Shown here in pieces: positions 8,509 through 31,790 of a stretch of DNA of 44,006 nt. The position numbers were made by a program, and so were the translations under genes. Each line of letters opens with the position of its first letter. Position 1 is the stretch's first letter. The notes under the pieces are model-generated. The model ran no database searches, was not told the DNA's origin, and saw only the letters and a program-made list of their open reading frames with translations. Source of the DNA: Gammaproteobacteria bacterium (lineage in GTDB: Bacteria > Pseudomonadota > Gammaproteobacteria > Magnimaribacterales > TMED112); NCBI GenBank assembly GCA_002690945.1, contig NZGL01000014.1:1-44006 (forward strand), read 5' to 3'.

Positions 8509-9531
8509 ATGAGATTAATTAATTTATTTAAGAATCAGCAGTTAATGTTCCTTTTTACAGTATTAGCCGTTGGATTCTCCTCTTTATGGGTGGTTGGGGA
8601 CTTATCTTCATTCATATTAACAAGTATAGTTTTAGCTTTTTTATTTAGGCCAGTACATGTTTATTTTACCAAAATAGGCCTTCCTAAGGGAATAAGTGTA
8701 GTTACTACATTCTTAATTGTAGTTCTGATAGCATTTTTATTTTTATTATTGTTTATTCCTCTTTTCATTAGTGAAGCTCAAAGATATATCACTGAATTAC
8801 CAAGTTTCTCATTCTTGCAAGGACCATTAAGAGATTTTTTAGCACAGATTAATGCTCCGATAGAATCAATTGATGGTGCCCAAAGTCTATTATCTAATAT
8901 AACTGGTTTAGCTGGTGATGCTGTATCATTTGGATTGTCAAGAATACAAGAGACTTGGAATCTTTTTCTAGGCATTACTCTTGTTCCCATCTTTCTCTTT
9001 TTTTGGCTGTGGGACACAGATACACTATCTTCAGGATTTTCAACATTAGTTCCTAAAAAAAGAAAATTTTTAGTTAGAGTCTGGAATGAAACCAATAATA
9101 ATGTTCAGAATTACTTCAAAGGAAAATTTATTGAAGTAGTTGTGGTAGGGGTTGTTGGAAGCATAATGTTCTGGGCACTTGGCTTAGATAGCCCAGTTCT
9201 AATAGGAACAATATTAGGCCTTAGTCAATTTATACCTTTCTTTGGTCCAGTATTCATGACATTCCCTATACTGGCAGTTTCGCTAGCTCAATTTGGTTTC
9301 GATCCATATGTGCTTATAATTTTCTTTGCTTTTGTGGTTCTGCAATTTATAGATGGAAATATATTTTTACCAATTTTAATGTCAGGTGTCGTTAAATTAC
9401 CAGCAGTAGTGGTATTGCTTTCAGTTTTCTTTTTTGGCGCTATTTTTGGAATTTGGGGAATATTTTTTGCCGTACCATTGTCCAGTTTTATAAAATCTAT
9501 TATGGATAACTGGAAATTTGTTGATTCTTAA
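8509..9531 (+). CDS. AI-2E/PerM-family membrane permease
   Basis: This 340-residue membrane protein has about seven to eight hydrophobic segments. An amphipathic central stretch lies after the second or third helix. The C-terminal half shows the family pattern of a glycine-rich GTILGLSQFIPFFGPV segment followed by FIDGNIFLPILMSG and a final IFGIWGIFFAVPL helix. Family members are variously described as AI-2 exporters, Na+/H+ antiporters or PerM permeases, so the substrate cannot be assigned. In E. coli and relatives perM lies next to bepA (yfgC) and near bcp and dapA. The same neighbourhood is preserved here, which supports the PerM label. Confidence 0.8.
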   Translation: MRLINLFKNQQLMFLFTVLAVGFSSLWVVGDLSSFILTSIVLAFLFRPVHVYFTKIGLPKGISVVTTFLIVVLIAFLFLLLFIPLFISEAQRYITELPSFSFLQGPLRDFLAQINAPIESIDGAQSLLSNITGLAGDAVSFGLSRIQETWNLFLGITLVPIFLFFWLWDTDTLSSGFSTLVPKKRKFLVRVWNETNNNVQNYFKGKFIEVVVVGVVGSIMFWALGLDSPVLIGTILGLSQFIPFFGPVFMTFPILAVSLAQFGFDPYVLIIFFAFVVLQFIDGNIFLPILMSGVVKLPAVVVLLSVFFFGAIFGIWGIFFAVPLSSFIKSIMDNWKFVDS

Positions 9532-9989
9532 TCTAAAGAGCAGAGCATCTGATATACATCTTCTACATGACCAGAGACTTTAACTCCTCTCCATTCATTT
9601 ATTATTGCTCCCTCTGGACTAACTAGAAAAGTACTTCTTTCTATTCCCATATATTTTCTTCCATACATAGATTTCTCTTTCATTACTCCATAGGCATTAC
9701 ACATCTCCTCATCAGGATCTGATATTAGTGGAAAATTTAAAGATTCTTTTTCATGGAAACTTTTATGGGATTTGATGGAATCTCTAGAAACTCCTACTAT
9801 CGCACAATTTTTAGCCTTAAATTTTTTACAATAATCCCTGAAACCTTGACTTTCGATGGTGCATCCAGAAGTCTTATCTTTTGGGTAGAAGTATATTACG
9901 AGGTATTTCCCTTTGAAATTATCAAGACTTAAGTGCTCATTATCATCAATTAAGCCTAAAAAATTTGGTGCTTTTGTTTTATCATTCAT
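9528..9989 (-). CDS. bcp: Bcp-type thioredoxin-dependent peroxiredoxin
   Basis: This 153-residue protein has the AhpC/TSA fold pattern YLVIYFYPKDKTSGCT with peroxidatic cysteine C43. The usual resolving cysteine five residues later in E. coli Bcp is Gln48 here. Another cysteine, C54, lies 11 residues after C43, and further Cys are scattered. It could therefore be a 1-Cys or atypical 2-Cys enzyme. Its role is reduction of H2O2 and organic peroxides. Its 3' end overlaps the permease gene by 4 nt in convergent orientation. Its start is only 24 bp from the divergent dapA start, the same divergent bcp/dapA arrangement known in E. coli. Confidence 0.9.
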   Translation of the reverse strand: MNDKTKAPNFLGLIDDNEHLSLDNFKGKYLVIYFYPKDKTSGCTIESQGFRDYCKKFKAKNCAIVGVSRDSIKSHKSFHEKESLNFPLISDPDEEMCNAYGVMKEKSMYGRKYMGIERSTFLVSPEGAIINEWRGVKVSGHVEDVYQMLCSLD

Positions 9990-12614: not shown

Positions 12615-13832
12615 ATGAGAACTAAAGCTATATATTTTGATTATGCAGCAACGACTCCTGTTGACCCAAGAGTTGCAAAGAAGATGCATGAATGTTTGTT
12701 GCTAGATGGTAATTTTGGTAACCCTGCTTCAAGATCTCATGAATTTGGTTGGAAAGCTGAAGAAGTTGTTGAAAAAGCAAGATTACAGGTAGCAGACTTA
12801 ATAAATGCAGACTCAAGAGAAATAGTTTGGACTTCTGGAGCTACAGAGTCTGACAATCTCGCTATTAAAGGCGCAGCTAAATTCTATAAAGATAGAGGCA
12901 ACCACATCATTACATCTAAAATAGAGCATAAAGCAGTATTAGATCCGTGTAGACAGCTCGAAAGAGAAGGATTCGAAGTAACTTATCTAGACCCAGATGA
13001 AGATGGAGTTATAACTTTAGAAGCATTAAAAAAACACGTTAAAGAGAACACAATCTTAATTTCATTAATGCATATAAATAATGAACTAGGTTCGATAAAT
13101 GATATCGATAAAATAGGTGATTTTACGCGTGAAAAAAATATTATTTTTCATGTCGACGCAGCTCAGAGCATAGGAAAAATCAACATAGACTTATCTAAAT
13201 CAAATGTTGATCTCATGTCGTTTTCAGCCCATAAATGTTATGGACCTAAAGGTATGGGTGCTTTATATGTAAGAAGAAAACCTAGAGTTAGGTTAGAGGC
13301 ACTGATACATGGTGGAGGACATGAAAGAGGATTCAGATCCGGAACGTTAGCAACTCATCAGATTGTTGGGATGGGAGAAGCCTTTAGCTTAGTCAAAAAA
13401 GAAATGGAAAAAGATAATAAGAAAATAAAAGAGCTTTCAGAATTCTTTTGGGATCAAATATCAGGAATAGAAGAAATAGTACTAAACGGGAACAAGAAAA
13501 ATAAAGTTGCGAACATAACGAATGTCAGCTTTTCATATGTAGAAGGCGAATCACTAATAATGGCACTAAAAGATGTTGCCGTTTCTTCAGGCTCTGCATG
13601 CACATCAGCAAGTCTAGAGCCTTCTTATGTTCTTAGAGCTTTGGGAAGACCGGATGAGTTAGCACATAGCTCAATAAGATTCTCTTTTGGTAGATTTACA
13701 ACCAAAGAAGAAGTTAAAATGGTAGCAGAAACAACTAAGCGGGTGGTTAGACAACTTAGAGAATTGTCACCTTTATGGGATATGCATCTCGATGGGGTTG
13801 ACCTTGAAAAAGTTGAGTGGGCACACCATTAA
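12615..13832 (+). CDS. iscS: Cysteine desulfurase IscS
   Basis: IscS removes sulfur from cysteine using PLP and passes it to IscU and other acceptors. The 405-residue product keeps [12 protein letters not shown] at the N-terminus, [13 protein letters not shown] (about 74-86), the PLP-binding K207 in [12 protein letters not shown], and the persulfide cysteine C329 in [10 protein letters not shown]. It also keeps the group-I C-terminal tail ending in VEWAHH that binds IscU. Length and all motifs match E. coli IscS (404). It heads the cluster; iscU starts 6 nt after its stop. Confidence 0.97.
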
Positions 13833-20996: not shown

Positions 20997-21002
20997 TATA
21001 AT
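20997..21002 (+). promoter_or_regulatory. Candidate -10 element for the sdh-suc operon
   Basis: A perfect TATAAT in the 82-bp der-sdhC gap would start transcription near 21009, upstream of both copies of the duplicated sdhC start region. No convincing -35 is present at 16-18 bp spacing. The surrounding TTCTATAATA also occurs at the isc promoter. Confidence 0.45.
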
Positions 21003-21016
21003 ACATTTGGAAATTA

Positions 21017-21065
21017 CAGGTGGAAAATGACTAGGCCTTACAGTGCAGGTGGAAAATGACTAGGC
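21017..21065 (+). repeat. Duplicated sdhC translation-initiation region (20-nt direct repeat)
   Basis: The 20-nt sequence CAGGTGGAAAATGACTAGGC occurs at 21017-21036 and again at 21046-21065, a 29-nt period. Each copy holds a Shine-Dalgarno AGGTGG, an ATG and the first codons Met-Thr-Arg. The second copy starts sdhC; the first starts a short upstream ORF. Confidence 0.95.
21027..21059 (+). CDS. Upstream ORF / leader peptide MTRPYSAGGK ahead of sdhC
   Basis: The ATG at 21027 follows AGGTGG and encodes ten residues (MTRPYSAGGK), then TGA at 21057-21059. That stop overlaps the sdhC ATG (21056-21058) as ATGA, the geometry of translational coupling. It is out of frame with sdhC (29-nt offset). No known leader family is recognised. 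It may be a functional coupling ORF or a neutral by-product of a 29-bp duplication. Confidence 0.5.
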   Translation: MTRPYSAGGK

Positions 21066-21430
21066 GCCCCACATTCATAAATCTTTTTTTAATAAAACTT
21101 CCAATATCAGCAATTTCTTCAATAAGCCATAGACTCTCAGGCATTGCAATTTTTTTTATAGCTTTACCAACATTTGTTCTGCTTTTTCTTACGGACTATA
21201 TGGTTACTGCTCAAGGAGAATGGGATTTAGATAAGTATAATTTTGAAGTTAAGTTACTGGTATCAGTCTCTTTGGTTGCCCTTACATATCATACCTTAGC
21301 TGGGTTGAGACATATGCTAATAGATTTTTCAAGTTATGGGCATGAATTAGATCAAGCAAGATTATCAGCAATGTTAACTTTTGCATTAACCTTTGTTGTA
21401 TCAATATTTTTATTAATGGAGGTTTGGTAG
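21056..21430 (+). CDS. sdhC: Succinate dehydrogenase cytochrome b556 subunit
   Basis: This membrane anchor of complex II has 124 residues and three hydrophobic helices. SSISHRLSG (about 21-29) carries the quinone-site Ser and Arg equivalents (S22, R26), and the heme b ligand candidate is H79 in LTYHTLAGLRHMLID. The start at 21056 is the second of two duplicated initiation sites. sdhD follows without a gap. It probably heads the operon. Confidence 0.94.
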   Translation: MTRRPTFINLFLIKLPISAISSISHRLSGIAIFFIALPTFVLLFLTDYMVTAQGEWDLDKYNFEVKLLVSVSLVALTYHTLAGLRHMLIDFSSYGHELDQARLSAMLTFALTFVVSIFLLMEVW

Positions 21431-21796
21431 ATGGGCACCTTTTTTTGGTATTTTCAGCGATGTACAGCCGTAATCATTCTTGTTTATGTCTTATTTATAT
21501 TATTTAGTTATATGGCTAAACCATGGGGAATTGATTACAGCCTCTGGTATGCAGATATTAGCAGCTTACCAATGAAAATTTTTACAATAATATTTTTTAT
21601 TTCTAGCATATTGCATGGGATTCAGGGATTAAGAGATGTTGAGGATGACTATTTCACAGAAAGAACATTAGGATTTATATCTGAAACATTAGGAGCGTAC
21701 GCTCTAGTATTCAGAATTATTTTTAGATTTTTTATTGCATTAGTCGTTATTGTTCTTACTTATATATTAGTGTTTAAGTACTTATTAGGTGGATAA
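21431..21796 (+). CDS. sdhD: Succinate dehydrogenase membrane anchor subunit
   Basis: This second membrane anchor has 121 residues and three hydrophobic helices. The motif LHGIQGLRDVEDDY gives heme-ligand candidate H62 and the quinone-site D73-Y74 pair (spacing +11/+12, as H71 with D82-Y83 in E. coli). Overall sequence is divergent, as usual for SdhD, so position supports the call. It abuts sdhC and sdhA with no spacing. Confidence 0.93.
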   Translation: MGTFFWYFQRCTAVIILVYVLFILFSYMAKPWGIDYSLWYADISSLPMKIFTIIFFISSILHGIQGLRDVEDDYFTERTLGFISETLGAYALVFRIIFRFFIALVVIVLTYILVFKYLLGG

Positions 21797-23578
21797 ATGA
21801 AGTTAGGTAATATCGAATTTACAGAACAACAATTTGATGTGGTAATTATAGGTGGTGGTGGTTCTGGGTTAAGAGCATCTCTTGAAATATCAAAATCTGG
21901 CTTAAATGTTGGCGTAGTGTCAAAAGTTTTTCCTACTAGATCTCATACGGTAGCTGCACAGGGCGGAATTACTTGTGCAATAGCAAGCGCTGATCCAAAT
22001 GATGATTGGAGATGGCATATGTTTGATACTGTTAAGGGCTCTGACTATATAGGAGATCAAGATGCAATTGAATATATGTGCTCTGAGGGACCAGAGACTG
22101 TATTTGAACTTGAACATATGGGACTGCCATTCTCAAGGTTTGAAAATGGAAGAATATATCAAAGACCATTTGGTGGGCAGTCAAAAGAATATGGAGAGGG
22201 AGGACAGGCTGCAAGAACATGTGCTGCAGCTGATAGAACCGGGCATGCTCTTTTGCATACCCTCTATCAAGCAAATCTAAAGGCAGGAACAAATTTCTTA
22301 AATGAGTGGTTTGCTGTAGATATAATAAAAAATGATTCTGGTGTAGTTTCTGGTATTAGTTGCTTTGATATGGAGACAGGCGAAGTATCAATAATAAAAT
22401 GTAATGCGATTGTTTTGGCAACGGGGGGAGCAGGACAAGTATATGAACAAAATACTACTTCATTAATTTGCACTGGAGATGGTTTGGGCATGGTATTAAG
22501 AAAGGATTTGCCTTTACAAGATATGGAAATGTGGCAGTTCCACCCAACTGGTCTATATGGTAACGGATCATTGATGACTGAAGGTTGTAGAGGCGAAGGC
22601 GGCTATCTAGTTAATTCAGAAGGCAAAAGGTTCATGCCTGATTATGCTCCTAAGGCAAAAGACTTAGCATCTAGAGATGTAGTCTCGCGATGCATAGTGC
22701 AAGAAATTTTAGCAGGCAGGGGTTGTGGTGATAAAAAGGATCATGTGCTTTTAAAAATTGATCATCTTGGATCAGAAGCCATAATAAAAAAACTCCCTGA
22801 AATAAGAGAAATATCAATGACTTTTGCTAATGTCGATCCTATAGAAAATCCAATACCAGTAGTACCAACTTGTCACTATATGATGGGAGGAATACCCACA
22901 AATATTAATGGCCAAGTAATTACCCAAGATAGCAATGGAAATGATTCTATTGTGAATGGTCTATATTCGATAGGTGAAGCAGCAAATGTCTCAGTACATG
23001 GCGCTAATAGACTCGGAGGCAACTCTTTATTGGATCTAGTAGTTTTTGGGAGAGCAGCAGGCAAGCATATAAATGAAGAACTACCAGAGCAATCTTCTTC
23101 TGAAGTGTCAAATACAAACATTGAAGAATCTTTAGAAACATTGATCAGAATTCAAGAAACAAAGAAAGGCGAGAGTGTCTTTAGTCTTAGATCAGATATG
23201 CAAAACGTTATGCAAAATTATTTTGGAGTTTATAGAAATGAAGATTTAATGAAAGAAGGAATTAAAAAGCTAGAAGACATAACAGAGAGAACAAAAAAAA
23301 TACATTTAAATGATAAGTCAGGCCAATTTAATTCAGAAAAAGTTGAAGTTTTAGAATATTTAAACTTGCTTGATATAGCTAATGCGACGGCATATTCAGC
23401 ACTTGAGAGAAAAGAAAGCAGAGGCGCTCATGCAAGAGAAGATTTCCCAGAAAGAGATGATGAAAATTGGTTGTGTCATTCATTGTTCTTCAAGGATAAA
23501 AATAAAGTTAGCAAAAGAGCTGTTAATTTAAAACCTAAAACAGTTGAAACTTTTAAACCAAAACCGAGGGTTTATTAA
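21797..23578 (+). CDS. sdhA: Succinate dehydrogenase flavoprotein subunit
   Basis: This is the FAD-bearing catalytic subunit that oxidises succinate to fumarate. The 593-residue product has the dinucleotide motif [13 protein letters not shown] (about 16-28), H50 in [11 protein letters not shown] as the covalent FAD site, the substrate-site TEGCRGEGG and HPTG, and the C-terminal [15 protein letters not shown]. Length matches E. coli (588). Confidence 0.97.
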
Positions 23579-24295
23579 ATGACAAAAAAACTTAAATTAA
23601 GTTTATATAGGTTCGACCCAGCAAAGGATAAAAGGCCTTATATGTCAGATTATGAGATTCCATATAGTTCGTCAGGAAATATGATGGTAATTGATGCAAT
23701 CAGGAAAGCTCAGGAACTTGATTCTACTATCACATTCAGAAGATCATGTGGTCAAGGAGTCTGCGGATCAGATGGTGTGAATATGAACGGTCAAAATGGA
23801 TTGGCATGTATTACTCCAGTCTCAAAAGTTATGACCGCAAATAGATTAGAAGTTAGACCACTTCCTGGACTACCAGTCATTAAAGATTTAATTGTAGATA
23901 TGAAGCCTTTTTACGATCAATATGAAAAAGTTAAACCTTTCTTAGACAATGATGAAGAAATTAAAACAGGACATGAAAGACTGCAGAGCCCAAAAGATAG
24001 AGAAAAACTTGATGGTTTATATGAATGCATATTGTGTGCGTGTTGTTCAACTAGCTGTCCTTCCTTCTGGTGGAACCCAGAAAAATTTGTTGGTCCAGCA
24101 GCACTTTTACAGGCATATCGTTTCATTGCTGATACAAGAGACAAGCAAAAAAGAATGAGACTTAAAAAATTAAATGATGCTTTTAGCGTATATAGGTGCC
24201 ACGGTATAATGAACTGTACCTCAGTTTGTCCAAAAGGTTTAAACCCATCAAAAGCAATCAATGAGATCAAAAAGGAGTTAAGAAAAACAGGATAG
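23579..24295 (+). CDS. sdhB: Succinate dehydrogenase iron-sulfur subunit
   Basis: This 238-residue subunit carries three Fe-S centres. The [2Fe-2S] motif is SCGQGVCGSDG with a later GLAC; the [4Fe-4S] motif is CILCACCSTSCP; the third centre uses CHGIMNCTSVCPKGLNP. The usual SCREG loop reads SCGQG here, with Arg changed to Gly next to a ligand. Its stop shares one base with the sucA GTG start, so sdh and suc genes form one unit. Confidence 0.97.
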   Translation: MTKKLKLSLYRFDPAKDKRPYMSDYEIPYSSSGNMMVIDAIRKAQELDSTITFRRSCGQGVCGSDGVNMNGQNGLACITPVSKVMTANRLEVRPLPGLPVIKDLIVDMKPFYDQYEKVKPFLDNDEEIKTGHERLQSPKDREKLDGLYECILCACCSTSCPSFWWNPEKFVGPAALLQAYRFIADTRDKQKRMRLKKLNDAFSVYRCHGIMNCTSVCPKGLNPSKAINEIKKELRKTG

Positions 24296-27087
24296 TGTCT
24301 AAGTCGATAGGGGAGAAATTTAAAGAGAGTTTTAAATATGGTGGAAATTCCGAATATTTAGATCTTATGTATGAAGAATATCTTGAAGATCCATCAAATC
24401 TAAGTCCAGAGTGGAAGAAATACTTTGATTCTATTCAAAATGGTCAGATTGATGTAAGTCATCAGGCGATTAAACAGGAATTTAAAAATACAAAGTACAA
24501 AAATAAAGAAATTCAAATAAAAGTTGGAGACACGACTTCAAAAGCCTCAGATGTCCAAAACCTAATCAATGCTTATCGAAGAAGAGGGCATGAAGTAGCT
24601 AGCTTAGACCCATTGGGATTAAGACCAAAAAAAGAAGTTTCAGATCTTAATATGGGTTTTCATAATCTTTCCCAATCTGATTTAGATTTAAATTTTTCTA
24701 TTTCGAATTTCCAGAATTCAAAAAATCTTAAATTATCTGAAATTATTGAATCGGTTGAGAAGACTTATACATCGACAATAGGCTATGAATTTATGCATAT
24801 TATGGATAGCAAGATCAGAAGATGGTTTCTAAATAAAATTGAAGGTAAATCTACGCCTTATAATTTTTCAGATGAAGAAAAGGAGCATGTATTAAAAAGG
24901 TTAGTTGATTCAGAAGGTTTAGAAAAATTTTTAGCGGCCAAATATCCTGGCGCAAAAAGATTTGGACTTGAAGGCGGAGAATCACTTATACCTTTACTTG
25001 ATACTCTTATTGAAGATCTTGGTTCTTCGGGAGCTAAAGAATTAGTCTTGGGTATGTCTCATAGAGGAAGGTTAAATGTTCTTATTAATGTAATGGGCAA
25101 AAAGCCTAGTCTTTTATTCTCAGAATTTGATGAAAATTTTGAGGAAGACGACGCTCATACTGGAGACGTTAAATATCATTTGGGTTTCTCGTCAAATATT
25201 CTAACCAGTGGGGGTCAGGTTCATGTGACTTTAGGGTCTAATCCGTCACATTTAGAAGCCGTTAACCCAGTTGTATTAGGCTCTGTACGCGCACGACAAG
25301 ATAGAAGAGAAGATAAAAATAATAATCAAGTAGTCCCAATACTGATGCATGGCGATGCATCATTTTCTGCTCAAGGTGTTGTAATGGAGATTTTACAACT
25401 TTCACAGACTAGAGCCTATGGCGTAGGTGGTTCCATACATATAGTCGTAAATAATCAAATAGGTTTTACTACTAGTGTTAAAGAAGATGCTAGGTCAACT
25501 GAATATTGCACAGATGTGGCAAAAATGATTAATGCACCAATAATTCATGTAAATGGTGATGACCCAGAGGCATGTGTTATGGCCGCTAAACTAGCAGTAG
25601 AGTTCAGAAGCACTTTTAAGAAAGATATCATTGTTGACTTTGTATGTTATAGAAGAAGAGGTCACAACGAAACCGATGAACCATTTGCAACGCAACCAGT
25701 TATGTATAAAGAAATAAAATCAAAAGATACAGTAACCAATATATATTCAAATAAATTGATAGAAAAAAAGTCATTAGATGAATCTAAATTTGAAAAATTT
25801 AAAAAAGATTATAGAAAGAATATGGAAAAAGGAGAGACAGTTGCTAAATCCCTAGCAACTGACCCTGATTTATCTCTTCAATTTGATTGGGAACTCTATA
25901 TAGAACCAGACCTAAAAAAATCCTACCCAACTGCAGTTTCAGCTGAAGCCCTTACGGAAAGTATGAAGTATGGCTTTGATTTTGAAGAGGGTTTAAAGAT
26001 GCAAAAACAGGTTGCTAAAGTTTATGAAGAGAGAGCACAAATGTTAGAAGGAAAGATTCCTATGAATTGGGGGTTTGCTGAAATGGCTGCCTATGCGACA
26101 TTATTAAAAGATGAATATCCTGTAAGAATGACAGGACAGGATAGTAGGAGAGGCACTTTCTCACATCGCCACCTTGTAGTTAAAGATCAAGAAACAGGCA
26201 TAGGTTATGTGCCTCTTTCTAAGCTAAATAAAGGAAACAGAAAATTTGAAATTTATGACTCTCTGCTATCAGAGGAAGCAGTATTAGGTTTTGAATATGG
26301 GTATGCATCTACTTGGCCCGAAGGTTTAGTAATTTGGGAGGCTCAATTTGGAGATTTTGTTAATGTCGCTCAAGTAGTTATAGACCAGTTTATAGTTAGT
26401 GGTGAAACTAAGTGGAATCGACTATCTGGCTTAACAATGTTTCTTCCTCATGGCTATGAAGGACAAGGGCCAGAACATAGTAGCTGTAGACTAGAGAGAT
26501 TCCTTCAGTTATGTTCTCATGAAAATATTCAGGTTTGTGTACCAACATTACCCGCACAAATATTTCATTTACTTAGAAGGCAGGTCGTTAGACCTTCAAG
26601 AAAACCCTTAATTGTCCTAACTCCAAAAAGTTTGCTAAGAAACCCATTAGCAACATCTGAAATTAAGGATTTAACAGAAGGCACATTTAAAAATGTTATT
26701 GTTGATGATTCTAATTCAGTATCTAAAAGAGTTATATTTTGCTCTGGAAAGATATATTTTGATTTACTTCAAGAGATATCTAAAAAGAATATTAAAAATA
26801 TTACAGTCGTTAGACTGGAACAACTTTATCCATTCCCTGAAAGTGAATTAATAAATATTACAAAAGGTGTTAAATGTAAGGATTTTTATTGGGTGCAAGA
26901 AGAGCCAGAAAACATGGGAGCATGGCTAATGATTAGACATAAGTTAGAAAAAGTACTTAATGAAACTAAGAAAGGCTACAAGCTGAGTGTTATTGCAAGA
27001 AATTTATCAGCTGCTCCTGCTGGAGGATATCAAAAATATCATCAAAAACGACAAAAAGAGATAGTTACAGAGGCCTTAGAGTTATAG
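24295..27087 (+). CDS. sucA: 2-oxoglutarate dehydrogenase E1 component
   Basis: This is the thiamine-diphosphate decarboxylase of the 2-oxoglutarate dehydrogenase complex, 930 residues (E. coli 933). Seen motifs are the N-terminal [41 protein letters not shown] (about 251-261), [10 protein letters not shown] and the TDP-binding region ending VNNQIGFTT, plus [12 protein letters not shown]. The start is a GTG that overlaps the sdhB stop by one base, and no in-frame ATG lies nearby. Confidence 0.97.
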
Positions 27088-27097
27088 AATATTCAAA

Positions 27098-28342
27098 ATG
27101 ACTGAAGATATAAAATCTCCCCAATTTCCTGAATCAATTTTTGAAGGCACATTATCGAGCTGGCTCAAAAAAGAGGGCGATGAAATAAAACAAGATGAAG
27201 TTTTAGCAGAAATTGAAACCGATAAAGTTGTCATAGAAGTAACAGCTCCATCTGATGGCGTAATGGAAAAAATATTAATAGAGGAAGGGAGCACAATAAA
27301 AAGTTCAGAAGTAATAGGCAGATATAAAAAAGGGAAAAGCGATCCTAGTTCTCCAGCAAAGCCTGAAAGCACACAAAAGGAAACTGAAAAAGCAGAAATG
27401 AAAGTACAAGAAAAGCCTAAAAAAGATAAGACTACGACTGAAAAAGTTGAAACTAAAAAAAGTGCAAAAGAGAAAGGCTTTAGGATGGGACCAGCAGCAA
27501 AGAAATTATTGAATGAAGAAGATATTGATCTGGCTGACGTAGAAACAAGCTCTAAAAGAAATGTAGTAACAAAAAAAGACATACTTGAGGCAGCAAGTAA
27601 AAAGCCCGAACAGAAAGAAAGCCCAGATACAGTCGTAGATGAGAATAATACAAAAAGAGTCCCAATGACAAGATTGCGATCAGTAGTCGCAAAAAGACTT
27701 TTAGAATCACAATTTTCAACAGCTTCACTTACAACATTTAATGAGGTTGACCTATATGAAGTTAAGAAGCTAAGAGAGAAATACCGTGATAGTTTTGAAC
27801 AAAAATTTGGAGTAAAACTTGGATTTATGGGTATGTTCCTTAAGGCTTCAAGTTTGGCCTTGCAAGATATGCCAATTGTTAATGCATCTATAGATGGGAA
27901 TGATATTGTTTACCATGGATCTCAAGATATTGGTGTTGCTGTTTCAACTGAAAAAGGGCTCGTTGTCCCGGTTGTAAGAAACGTACAAGAACTCTCTTTA
28001 GCTGAAATAGAAACTGCTATAAGAGATTATTCCATTAAGGCTAGAGATGGAAAAATTGAAATGTCTGATATAACAGGTGGAACATTTACTGTCTCAAATG
28101 GAGGCGTTTTTGGTTCTTTGCTTTCAACCCCTATTCTAAATCCTCCGCAATCTGCGATTCTAGGTATGCATAAAATACAAGAGAGACCAATGGTAGTTAA
28201 TGGAAATATAGAGGTTAGACCTATGATGTATCTAGCATTAACTTATGACCATAGATTATTAGATGGCAAAGACGCTGTATCTTTTTTAGTAAAAATAAAG
28301 GAGACACTCGAATCACCAGAATCGATGATCCTAGGAGTTTAA
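27098..28342 (+). CDS. sucB: Dihydrolipoyllysine succinyltransferase (E2 of 2-oxoglutarate dehydrogenase)
   Basis: The lipoyl domain has its lipoylated lysine K43 in [12 protein letters not shown] Lys/Glu-rich flexible linker (about 85-125) follows, then an E1/E3-binding domain ([14 protein letters not shown]), and a catalytic domain ending in [12 protein letters not shown], with the active His and Asp about 20-30 residues from the C-terminus. Total 414 residues (E. coli 405), with one lipoyl domain. Confidence 0.97.
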
Positions 28343-29761
28343 ATGGAATATGATGTAATTGTTATTGGAGGAGGTCCTGGAGGCTATGTAGCAGCGATAA
28401 AAGCATCTCAGCTAGGTCTAAAAACGGCTTGCATAGAATTTGATGAGGACAATCAAGGGAAGCAGAGATTGGGCGGCACTTGTTTAAATGTTGGCTGCAT
28501 ACCTTCAAAATCCCTACTTGATTCTTCTTATAAGTATCATCAAATATCAGAAAGTTTTGATGAACATGGGATAAAAGTATCGAAACCCAATTATGATTTA
28601 GCAAAAATGATGGAAAGAAAGAATGAGATTGTAAAAAAACTTACAGGCGGAGTAAGCCATTTATTTTCACACAATAAAGTAGAAGCAATTCATGGAAAAG
28701 GAAAACTACTTAATCAAAATGAAGTTGAAGTTACAGATCTAAAAGGAAAGAAAAAGAAATACCAAGGAAAAAATATTGTTTTAGCGACAGGTTCAAGACC
28801 AATAAATATACCGTCAGTCCCATGGAATGGTACGACAGTAGTTGGAAGTGCTGGAGCTTTAGAATTTACTGAGACACCAAAAAACCTTGGAATAATAGGC
28901 GCGGGTGTTATAGGCCTAGAACTTGGTAGTGTCTGGTCTCGTCTTGGTTCTGAAGTAAGTATTTTTGAAGCTGAAAAAAATTTATTACCAATGTTGGACA
29001 CTGATATGACTAGAACTATCGAAAGAGAATTCAAAAACCAAAATTTAAATATTCATTTAGGTTGTTTTGTAAAAGGATCAAAAAAATATAGAAAAGGTAT
29101 AAACCTTGAAGTAGAAATAGATGGCAAAATTGAGAAAAAATACTTTGACAAAGTAATAGTCGCTGTTGGAAGAAGACCATTTACAGATAATCTCTTAGAT
29201 GAGGGTTGTGGGCTAACTCTTGATGAAAAAGGTTTCGTTCCTGTTGATGACTACTGTCAAACAAATCTTGATAATGTTTATGCTGTTGGAGATCTTGTAA
29301 GAGGTCCAATGCTTGCACATAAAGCAATGGAAGAAGGAGTAATGGTTGCGGAGAGAATTGCTGGTAAAAAAATGGAAGTAAATTATGATTTAGTTCCAAG
29401 TGTTATATACACTCATCCAGAAATAGCATGGGTTGGAAAAACAGAGAAACAATTAAGAGATGAAGGAATTGACTTTAAAAAAGGAAATTTTCCGTTTGCA
29501 GCAAGTGGTAGAGCTTTAGCTGCTGGCGATGCGGTTGGGTCAGTAAAAGTTTTGGCAGACAAAGAAACAGATCAAGTTCTGGGAGTACAGATATTTGGAA
29601 ACTCAGCATCAGAAATATTACAACAAGGTCTTATTGGTATGGAGTTCTCTGCTAGTTCAGAAGATTTTGGCCTTACTATGTTCAGTCACCCTACTGTTTC
29701 GGAAGCTCTGCATGAAGCTGCCTTAGCTGTTAACAAACAAGCAATTCATATAGGAAACTGA
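28343..29761 (+). CDS. lpdA: Dihydrolipoamide dehydrogenase (E3)
   Basis: This FAD disulfide oxidoreductase of 472 residues has GGGPGGYVAA (about 9-18), the redox pair C47/C52 in GGTCLNVGCIPSK, an NAD-binding GAGVIGLELGSVW and the C-terminal pair H449/E454 in HPTVSEALHEA. It reoxidises the lipoyl arm of SucB and possibly of other complexes. It is embedded between sucB and sucC. In E. coli lpd lies elsewhere, but an internal lpd is common in other proteobacteria. Confidence 0.97.
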   Translation: MEYDVIVIGGGPGGYVAAIKASQLGLKTACIEFDEDNQGKQRLGGTCLNVGCIPSKSLLDSSYKYHQISESFDEHGIKVSKPNYDLAKMMERKNEIVKKLTGGVSHLFSHNKVEAIHGKGKLLNQNEVEVTDLKGKKKKYQGKNIVLATGSRPINIPSVPWNGTTVVGSAGALEFTETPKNLGIIGAGVIGLELGSVWSRLGSEVSIFEAEKNLLPMLDTDMTRTIEREFKNQNLNIHLGCFVKGSKKYRKGINLEVEIDGKIEKKYFDKVIVAVGRRPFTDNLLDEGCGLTLDEKGFVPVDDYCQTNLDNVYAVGDLVRGPMLAHKAMEEGVMVAERIAGKKMEVNYDLVPSVIYTHPEIAWVGKTEKQLRDEGIDFKKGNFPFAASGRALAAGDAVGSVKVLADKETDQVLGVQIFGNSASEILQQGLIGMEFSASSEDFGLTMFSHPTVSEALHEAALAVNKQAIHIGN

Positions 29762-30924
29762 TGAATCTTCACGAATATCAAGCGAAAGAATATTTCGAAA
29801 CATATGACTTGCCTGTATCTAGGAGATCAATAATAAAGAAATCTTCTGATATTGATGAAGCTGTTGAATCTATAGATTTCTCTAATGGCTGTGTAGCTAA
29901 AGTTCAATCACATACAGGTGGTAGAGGAAAAGTTGGTGGAGTTAAGCTTTGCAAATCAAAAGTCGAGGTTAAAGAATTCGTTGAACAATGGCTAGGTAAA
30001 AAAATCGTAACTATACAGACTGATTCAGATGGGTTGCCTGTAAATATAATTTCTCTTGAAGAATTAACCGATATAGATAAAGAGCTTTATATGAGTTTTA
30101 TTGTAGATAGAGGAGAAAAGTGTGTATCGATGATAGTTTCTGAAGCTGGAGGAATGAATATTGAAGAAGTAGCAGAAAAAACTCCAGAAAAGATTCTCAA
30201 AGCAAAACTTAATTCAGACTACCTAATAGAAGAAAAAGAAATAAAGGTTTTAGCTAATTCTTTAAATTTTAATTCTGAGCAAACAGATCAATTCAGTAAA
30301 ATTGTTTCAGGTTGCGCAAAATTATTTAGGGATAAAGATTTAAGCCTTTTAGAAATAAATCCATTAGTTATAAAAACCGATGGAAATCTTCATTGCTTAG
30401 ATGCAAAAATAAATGTCGATGAAAATGCTCTTTATAGACAAGAAGATTTATTAGATAAACGTGACCCTACACAAGAAGATCAAAGAGAGTATGAAGCCAA
30501 AGAGAATGATTTAAGTTATGTATCACTAGATGGGAATATTGGCTGCATGGTTAATGGAGCAGGCTTAGCCATGGGAACAATGGACACTATAAAACTCTAT
30601 GATGGTGAGCCAGCAAACTTTTTAGATGTCGGGGGTACAGCAACTAAAGAGCGAGTATCTAAAGCTTTTAAATTGATACTTTCTGACCAGAATGTTAAAG
30701 GCATTTTAATTAACATTTTTGGCGGAATAGTGAGATGCGATCTTATAGCCCAAGGAATTATAGATGCTATAAAAGAAAGAAGCGTATCAGTACCGATAGT
30801 AGTTAGATTGCAAGGCAATAAATCAGAAGAAGGTAAATTAATTCTAAATGATTCTGGTTTAAACCTTATAGGAGAAGATTCGCTTCAAGAGGCATCTAAA
30901 AAAATAGTTGAGCTAGTTAAATGA
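29761..30924 (+). CDS. sucC: Succinyl-CoA synthetase beta subunit
   Basis: This ATP-grasp subunit has 387 residues (E. coli 388). Seen motifs are [12 protein letters not shown] at the start, [15 protein letters not shown] (about 47-61), LEINPLV, and the C-terminal [12 protein letters not shown] and IFGGIVRCD. It shares one base with the lpd stop, and its own stop overlaps sucD (ATGA). Confidence 0.97.
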
Positions 30925-31790
30925 GTGTACTTATAGATAAAACTACCAAAGCAATTTTTCAAGGCTTTACAGGATCTCAAGCAACTATGCATGCTGAGCA
31001 ATGCATAGATTATGGCACAAATGTTGTTGGCGGAGTTACTCCAAATAAAGGAGGACAAGAACATTTAGGTAAGCCAGTATTCAATTCTGTAGAAGAAGCA
31101 ACCAAAGAAACAGCTGCTGATACTTCAGTAATCTTTGTGCCAGCAAAATTTACCAAATCAGCAATTATAGAAGCTGCTGAAGCAGGCATTAATTTAATTA
31201 TCTGTATAACAGAAGGCGTTCCTGTTCTTGATATGGTGGATGTTGTTAATGTTCTTAAGTCTCATCCTGAAGTTAGATTAATAGGGCCTAATTGTCCAGG
31301 GGTAATTTCTCCTGGAAAAGCAAAACTTGGGATAATGCCAGCTTCAATTCATTTAGAAGGAACTGTAGGTATAGTTTCTAGATCAGGGACTCTGACATAT
31401 GAGGCTGTGAAACAAACTACAGATGCAGGCCTAGGTCAAAGTACATGTATTGGTATAGGCGGAGACCCTGTTAATGGAACTTCATTTATAGATGCATTGG
31501 AAATGTTTGAAAACGATTCTCAAACTGAATCAATAGTCATGGTTGGTGAAATAGGTGGAAGCGCAGAAGAAGAAGCAGCTGAATACATTAGAGATAATAT
31601 TAAAAAGCCAGTTGTTTCATACATAGCTGGTGTCACTGCTCCAAAAGGCAAGAGAATGGGGCATGCAGGTGCAATAATTTCTGGAGGCAAAGGAACAGCT
31701 CAAGATAAATTTAAAGCTTTAGAATCTGCTGGTGTAGGGGTTGTAACTGATTTAAATCTGATTGGCTCCAGACTTAAAGAATCTCTTTAA
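30921..31790 (+). CDS. sucD: Succinyl-CoA synthetase alpha subunit
   Basis: The 289-residue subunit binds CoA and carries the phosphorylated histidine H248 in RMGHAGAII (H246 in E. coli). [19 protein letters not shown] and [10 protein letters not shown] are also conserved. It closes the nine-gene TCA operon. The last 39 nt overlap the 3' end of the convergent MATE gene, so no dedicated terminator fits between them. Confidence 0.97.

Follow-up and report, generated by a model that had tools for sequence, protein, structure and literature searches.

How did the translation start site of sdhC come to stand twice at the head of its operon, and what would the upstream copy do? We addressed this question in a 44,006-nt stretch of DNA (contig NZGL01000014.1, hereafter the window) from a TMED112-group gammaproteobacterium. 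The initial annotation described a perfect 20-nt repeat that places a Shine-Dalgarno (SD) sequence and ATG-ACT-AGG twice, 29 nt apart, and the repeat is exactly as claimed: CAGGTGGAAAATGACTAGGC occurs on the plus strand at positions 21017–21036 (copy 1) and 21046–21065 (copy 2), with 20 of 20 positions identical and 29 nt from start to start. In copy 1 the SD-like AGGTGG is followed by ATG ACT AGG, and in copy 2 it precedes the true sdhC start. The 10-codon upstream ORF (uORF) of the annotation is likewise present: a predicted SD-led frame on the plus strand, MTRPYSAGGK*, runs from the first ATG (ATG1, 21027) to 21059. Its TGA (21057–21059) shares the tetranucleotide ATGA (21056–21059) with the sdhC start codon (ATG2, 21056–21058), and the SD of sdhC sits within the uORF.

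The gene downstream, sdhC (21056–21430, plus strand; Sdh_cyt PF01127, E 7e-18), encodes the succinate dehydrogenase cytochrome b subunit, and its start is backed by the conserved N-terminus MxRRPTFIN. An in-frame extension of SdhC further upstream is ruled out by an in-frame TAG 24 nt before ATG2. ORFs and Pfam matches bear out the claim that the repeat heads a nine-gene TCA cluster in the order SdhC-SdhD-SdhA-SdhB-SucA-SucB-Lpd-SucC-SucD. Specifically, sdhD, sdhA, sdhB, sucA, sucB, lpd, sucC and sucD (21431–31790, plus strand) are tightly packed after sdhC, and the nine genes sdhCDAB-sucAB-lpd-sucCD are co-directional up to 31790, with gaps of 0–10 nt or short overlaps. Relatives of SdhC at 60–91% identity belong to SAR86 cluster bacteria and Gammaproteobacteria MAGs, including TMED112. 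The genome from which the window comes measures 1.18 Mb and is 79% complete.

Two observations argue that the repeat is not a chance event. In the 665 kb of the window's genome covered by our genome-wide counts of repeats and starts, all other perfect repeats of at least 17 nt spaced 10–100 nt apart have periods divisible by 3, as is expected of in-frame coding repeats; the sdhC repeat, with its period of 29, is the sole exception. In addition, the same two copies with the same period are found in two further species, here called G011 (CAJWAI010000050.1; SdhC 91% identical) and G019 (PBXH01000020.1; 89% identical). These genomes were assembled separately from differently named samples, which refutes the concern, raised with the initial annotation, that the duplication is an assembly artefact. 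Conservation of the uORF together with the repeat, which the annotation had proposed to check in related genomes, extends to two other species of the genus: the uORF reads MTKPYSAGGK* in G011 and MTRPYNTGGK* in G019, and both retain the ATGA overlap.

Of the 203 SAR86 genomes searched, 3 carry the two-copy pattern and 200 do not. The window, G011 and G019 form a clade at 100% support in a tree built from SdhC, SdhD and SdhA; because this tree lacks SdhA of G019 and contains some SdhD rows shortened by the ORF rule, its other branches are less certain. Within the three species, dS of sdhC and sdhD is 0.61–1.04; given a single origin in their common ancestor, the arrangement therefore cannot be recent. 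In a scan of viral contigs, 11 (L118–L128) matched the 19-nt unit, each of them only once, which we read as chance.

The relatives that lack the repeat present a different state of the same locus. Within the set of 21 genomes of the genus, sdhC was found in 16, namely the three clade members and 13 others; a match for sdhC was not found in the other five of the 21, probably owing to assembly gaps. An exact TATAAT lies upstream of sdhC in all 16, at 10–12 nt from the ATG in each of the 13 other members and at 53 nt in each of the three clade members. The short distance in the 13 other members is typical of a leaderless or near-leaderless gene; transcription usually starts 6–8 nt after the −10 element, and their leader would be about 2–6 nt. 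A TATAAT-like box about 10 nt before the start codon, which defines a TA-led gene, is found in all 13, whereas sdhC of the window has its exact TATAAT far upstream and only a degenerate TACAGT nearby. At 14 loci read from other SAR86 families, the matched sdhC start is preceded by TATAAT at a distance of 19 nt or more, which suggests that the compact form is particular to this genus.

A TATAAT-like signal about 10 nt upstream has been taken as the mark of leaderless genes (Zheng et al. 2011, PMC3160421). The other genus members resemble the leaderless or TA-led genes of that study in the position of TATAAT before the sdhC ATG, whereas the window differs in that its −10 is 53 nt off, with SD–start sites in between, in what would be a derived, SD-led state. 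In the literature searched, we found no paper linking leaderless genes with SAR86.

The derived state can be decomposed into its parts. In all three clade members, the 53 nt equal 11 + 29 + 13. The 29-nt unit consists of TCTATAATA plus CAGGTGGAAAATGACTAGGC, and the −10 element appears to have been copied with it. A tandem pair of 13-nt units (ATACAGGTGGAAA) follows the −10 and is clearest in G019; in the window, the degenerate first unit (copy 0, ATACATTTGGAAA, plus strand) occupies 21001–21013 and the second unit 21014–21026, and copy 0 is kept as ATACAGGTGGAAA in G011 and as ATACAGTTGGAAA in G019. The spacer between the two 20-nt copies (CTTACAGTG, 21037–21045, plus strand) is a probable decayed second −10 region, ancestrally TCTATAATA, with TACAGT at 21039–21044. 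Specifically, the spacers CTTACAGTG (window and G011) and CCTACAACA (G019) differ from TCTATAATA by transitions only, and 7 of the 9 positions are recoverable from one or the other spacer; column permutation for both properties jointly gives P = 0.006, a guide only, as the comparison was framed after the alignment was seen. When both duplications are built into a reconstructed ancestor of 72 nt, it aligns without gaps to all three species, with 4 differences from G019, 7 from G011 and 8 from the window. We regard the spacer, with good but not complete certainty, as a lost second −10, judging from nine bases.

We propose that, in the ancestor of the three TMED112-group SAR86 species, a near-leaderless module of 29 nt, TCTATAATA-CAGGTGGAAA-ATGACTAGGC, was tandemly duplicated, and that the 13-nt piece (ATACAGGTGGAAA) was also duplicated, before or after the 29-nt unit, which would have pushed the first ATG downstream. 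The upstream TATAAT (20997–21002, plus strand) is the predicted −10 of the sdh-suc operon promoter, although no consensus −35 was found with it. It would then drive a transcript that starts at about 21009, by the −10 rule, and whose predicted leader measures about 46 nt. The inner −10 copy would have decayed, to TACAGT in the window and G011 and to TACAAC in G019, and the inner promoter would have been lost.

TACAGT nevertheless retains four of the six −10 bases, so the inner promoter may survive, in which case the operon would be transcribed in two forms, one with a leader and the uORF, the other near-leaderless with its 5′ end immediately upstream of the sdhC ATG. The apparent copying of the −10 by the duplication, the TA...T kept in the window and G011, and the near-leaderless look of the other genus members all fit such a promoter. 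However, TACAAC of G019 lacks the final T, and most changes run from A/T to G/C in a window of 34% GC, which looks like loss. Furthermore, a promoter scan gave no plus-strand promoter, although, for lack of a −35, it also passed over the TATAAT that is conserved upstream. We consider a working inner promoter improbable.

On a transcript starting near 21009, both SD–start sites would be usable, and variation among the three species indicates how each has fared. At four-fold sites of sdhC and sdhD, 34 of 69 positions (49%) are variable. Against this rate, copy 1 shows few variable positions, 1 of 20 (P about 3e-5), and the part from its SD through its ATG shows none in 13 (P = 1.5e-4); the SD and ATG of copy 1 are conserved far above the neutral rate. 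Elsewhere, variable sites number 3 of 13 in copy 0, 4 of 9 in the spacer, 0 of 9 in the −10 and 0 of 10 in the 10-nt leader of copy 2, so low variation is concentrated on the promoter box and both SD–start sites. The uORF peptide varies at 3 of 10 residues; conservation seems limited to its initiation and stop and does not extend to the residues. These patterns provide evidence that selection probably acts on the new upstream start; homogenisation of the repeats by recombination or slippage could mimic or add to constraint in this comparison of three genomes.

Homogenisation also figures in the view that the repeat is a neutral relic of replication slippage, without effect on expression and kept identical by exchange between its copies. 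Tandem duplications do arise readily, and the carriers are only three genomes. Short tandem repeats, however, tend to collapse, and this arrangement persists at dS of 0.6–1.0. Moreover, neighbouring copies decay unequally, and G011 has a private change in copy 1 that escaped homogenisation. We therefore regard a neutral relic as very improbable.

The 3′ tail of the 16S rRNA, read from genomes of the genus other than the window's own, ends GGATCACCTCCTTA, and AGGTG pairs with its CACCT. The predicted anti-SD duplex has an energy of −7.0 kcal/mol for AGGTGG versus +0.4 kcal/mol for a short leader common to several outgroup species. Furthermore, 29 nt is about one ribosome footprint, so the two SD–start sites may exclude one another.

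Other modes of leader control were also considered. The suggestion that the repeat might fold is not supported: the sdhC start site is predicted to be mostly unpaired (0.73–0.81) in all three species, and RNA structure hiding it was rejected, with no consistent fold across the three. An Rfam element or attenuator in the leader was likewise rejected, there being no Rfam match and no terminator-like site. For leader-peptide attenuation, the variability of the peptide adds to these two results, as does the lack of a common strong fold. In E. coli, the same operon is reported to be controlled post-transcriptionally by the small RNA RyhB, which acts on sdhCDAB (PMC6191717); the window leader differs in that no Rfam family was found there.

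The geometry of translational coupling, as the initial annotation called it, is present in the ATGA overlap, a layout known to couple translation: 13 of 14 tested overlapping pairs, all of full genes, were strictly coupled (Huber et al. 2019, PMC6728339). The sdhC locus resembles these termination-reinitiation cases in its ATGA stop-start overlap and in the downstream SD inside the upstream frame, and differs in that the upstream frame is a 10-codon uORF derived from a duplicated gene start rather than a full gene; coupling here is putative. We propose that ribosomes start at ATG1, translate the uORF and terminate on the sdhC ATG, and that the terminating ribosomes could reinitiate at sdhC, aided by the SD inside the uORF.

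The overlap itself would follow mechanically from the 29-nt period, since duplication of an ATGA-start gene at a distance of 3n + 2 puts a stop on the second ATG, barring an earlier stop. In the genome-wide count, 116 of 245 starts begin with ATGA, and 13 of the 245 have before them a short ORF that stops on this ATGA, so such an ORF is not rare by itself. Besides the sdhC uORF, one SD match of five bases was found among these 13, in a two-codon case at position 92283 of contig C3. There (G000:C3:92283), the SD-led uORF (TTAAGGAGAATGATATGA) brings two ATGs close together.

sdhC may then be translated directly from its own SD in a leader without coupling, ATG1 being a tolerated by-product or a weak decoy. 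The automatic overlap and the openness of the sdhC SD and ATG agree with this account; the predicted structure does not hide the site, so coupling is not required to open it. But all 13 sites of the copy 1 SD and ATG are unchanged across the three species, in contrast to the adjoining copy 0 and spacer, which drift, and we judge translation without coupling rather unlikely. On balance, we think that the duplications probably turned a near-leaderless state into an SD-led leader with an ATGA-coupled uORF, in this lineage specifically.

SD-led leaders and ATGA coupling are known kinds of arrangement; new here is the lineage-specific duplication of promoter and start. More tentatively, and with somewhat less than even confidence, we suggest a stepwise natural switch in a core operon, from near-leaderless to SD-led, uORF-coupled initiation through promoter-start duplication, with the pieces still legible and the uORF start under selection. 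To our knowledge, what is known of how genes pass from leaderless to SD-led initiation or back comes mostly from genome-wide statistics; at sdhC, a single locus within a single genus displays the two states together with a simple molecular route linking them. The locus heads the operon encoding complex II along with part of the TCA cycle, in a marine group that is abundant but uncultured, and its interest comes chiefly from the survival of the other state in sister species.

Further observations come from the same genome. Near-leaderless spacing is enriched genome-wide, which speaks for the proposed ancestral state of sdhC: exact TATAAT stands 5–12 nt before 12 of the 245 starts (taking as start the first ATG in each ORF of 100 codons or more) versus 2.8 ± 1.6 in shuffles, and the peak is sharpest at 6 nt, which suggests that truly leaderless genes exist in this genome. 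Among the starts forming this peak is that of a peroxiredoxin-like ORF (9528–9989, minus strand), whose ATG follows TATAAT at a distance of exactly 6 nt. An iscS-like cysteine desulfurase gene (12615–13832) has TATAAT 10 nt before its ATG, as does an apparent homologue in G007, suggesting a near-leaderless gene whose layout is conserved. Finally, the end of contig G000:C9 (about 49430–49557) and the start of G000:C2 have a tandem coding repeat in common, GAAGCTCCAGTCGAAGAGGAA, and the two may adjoin in the genome, with the break falling in this repeat.
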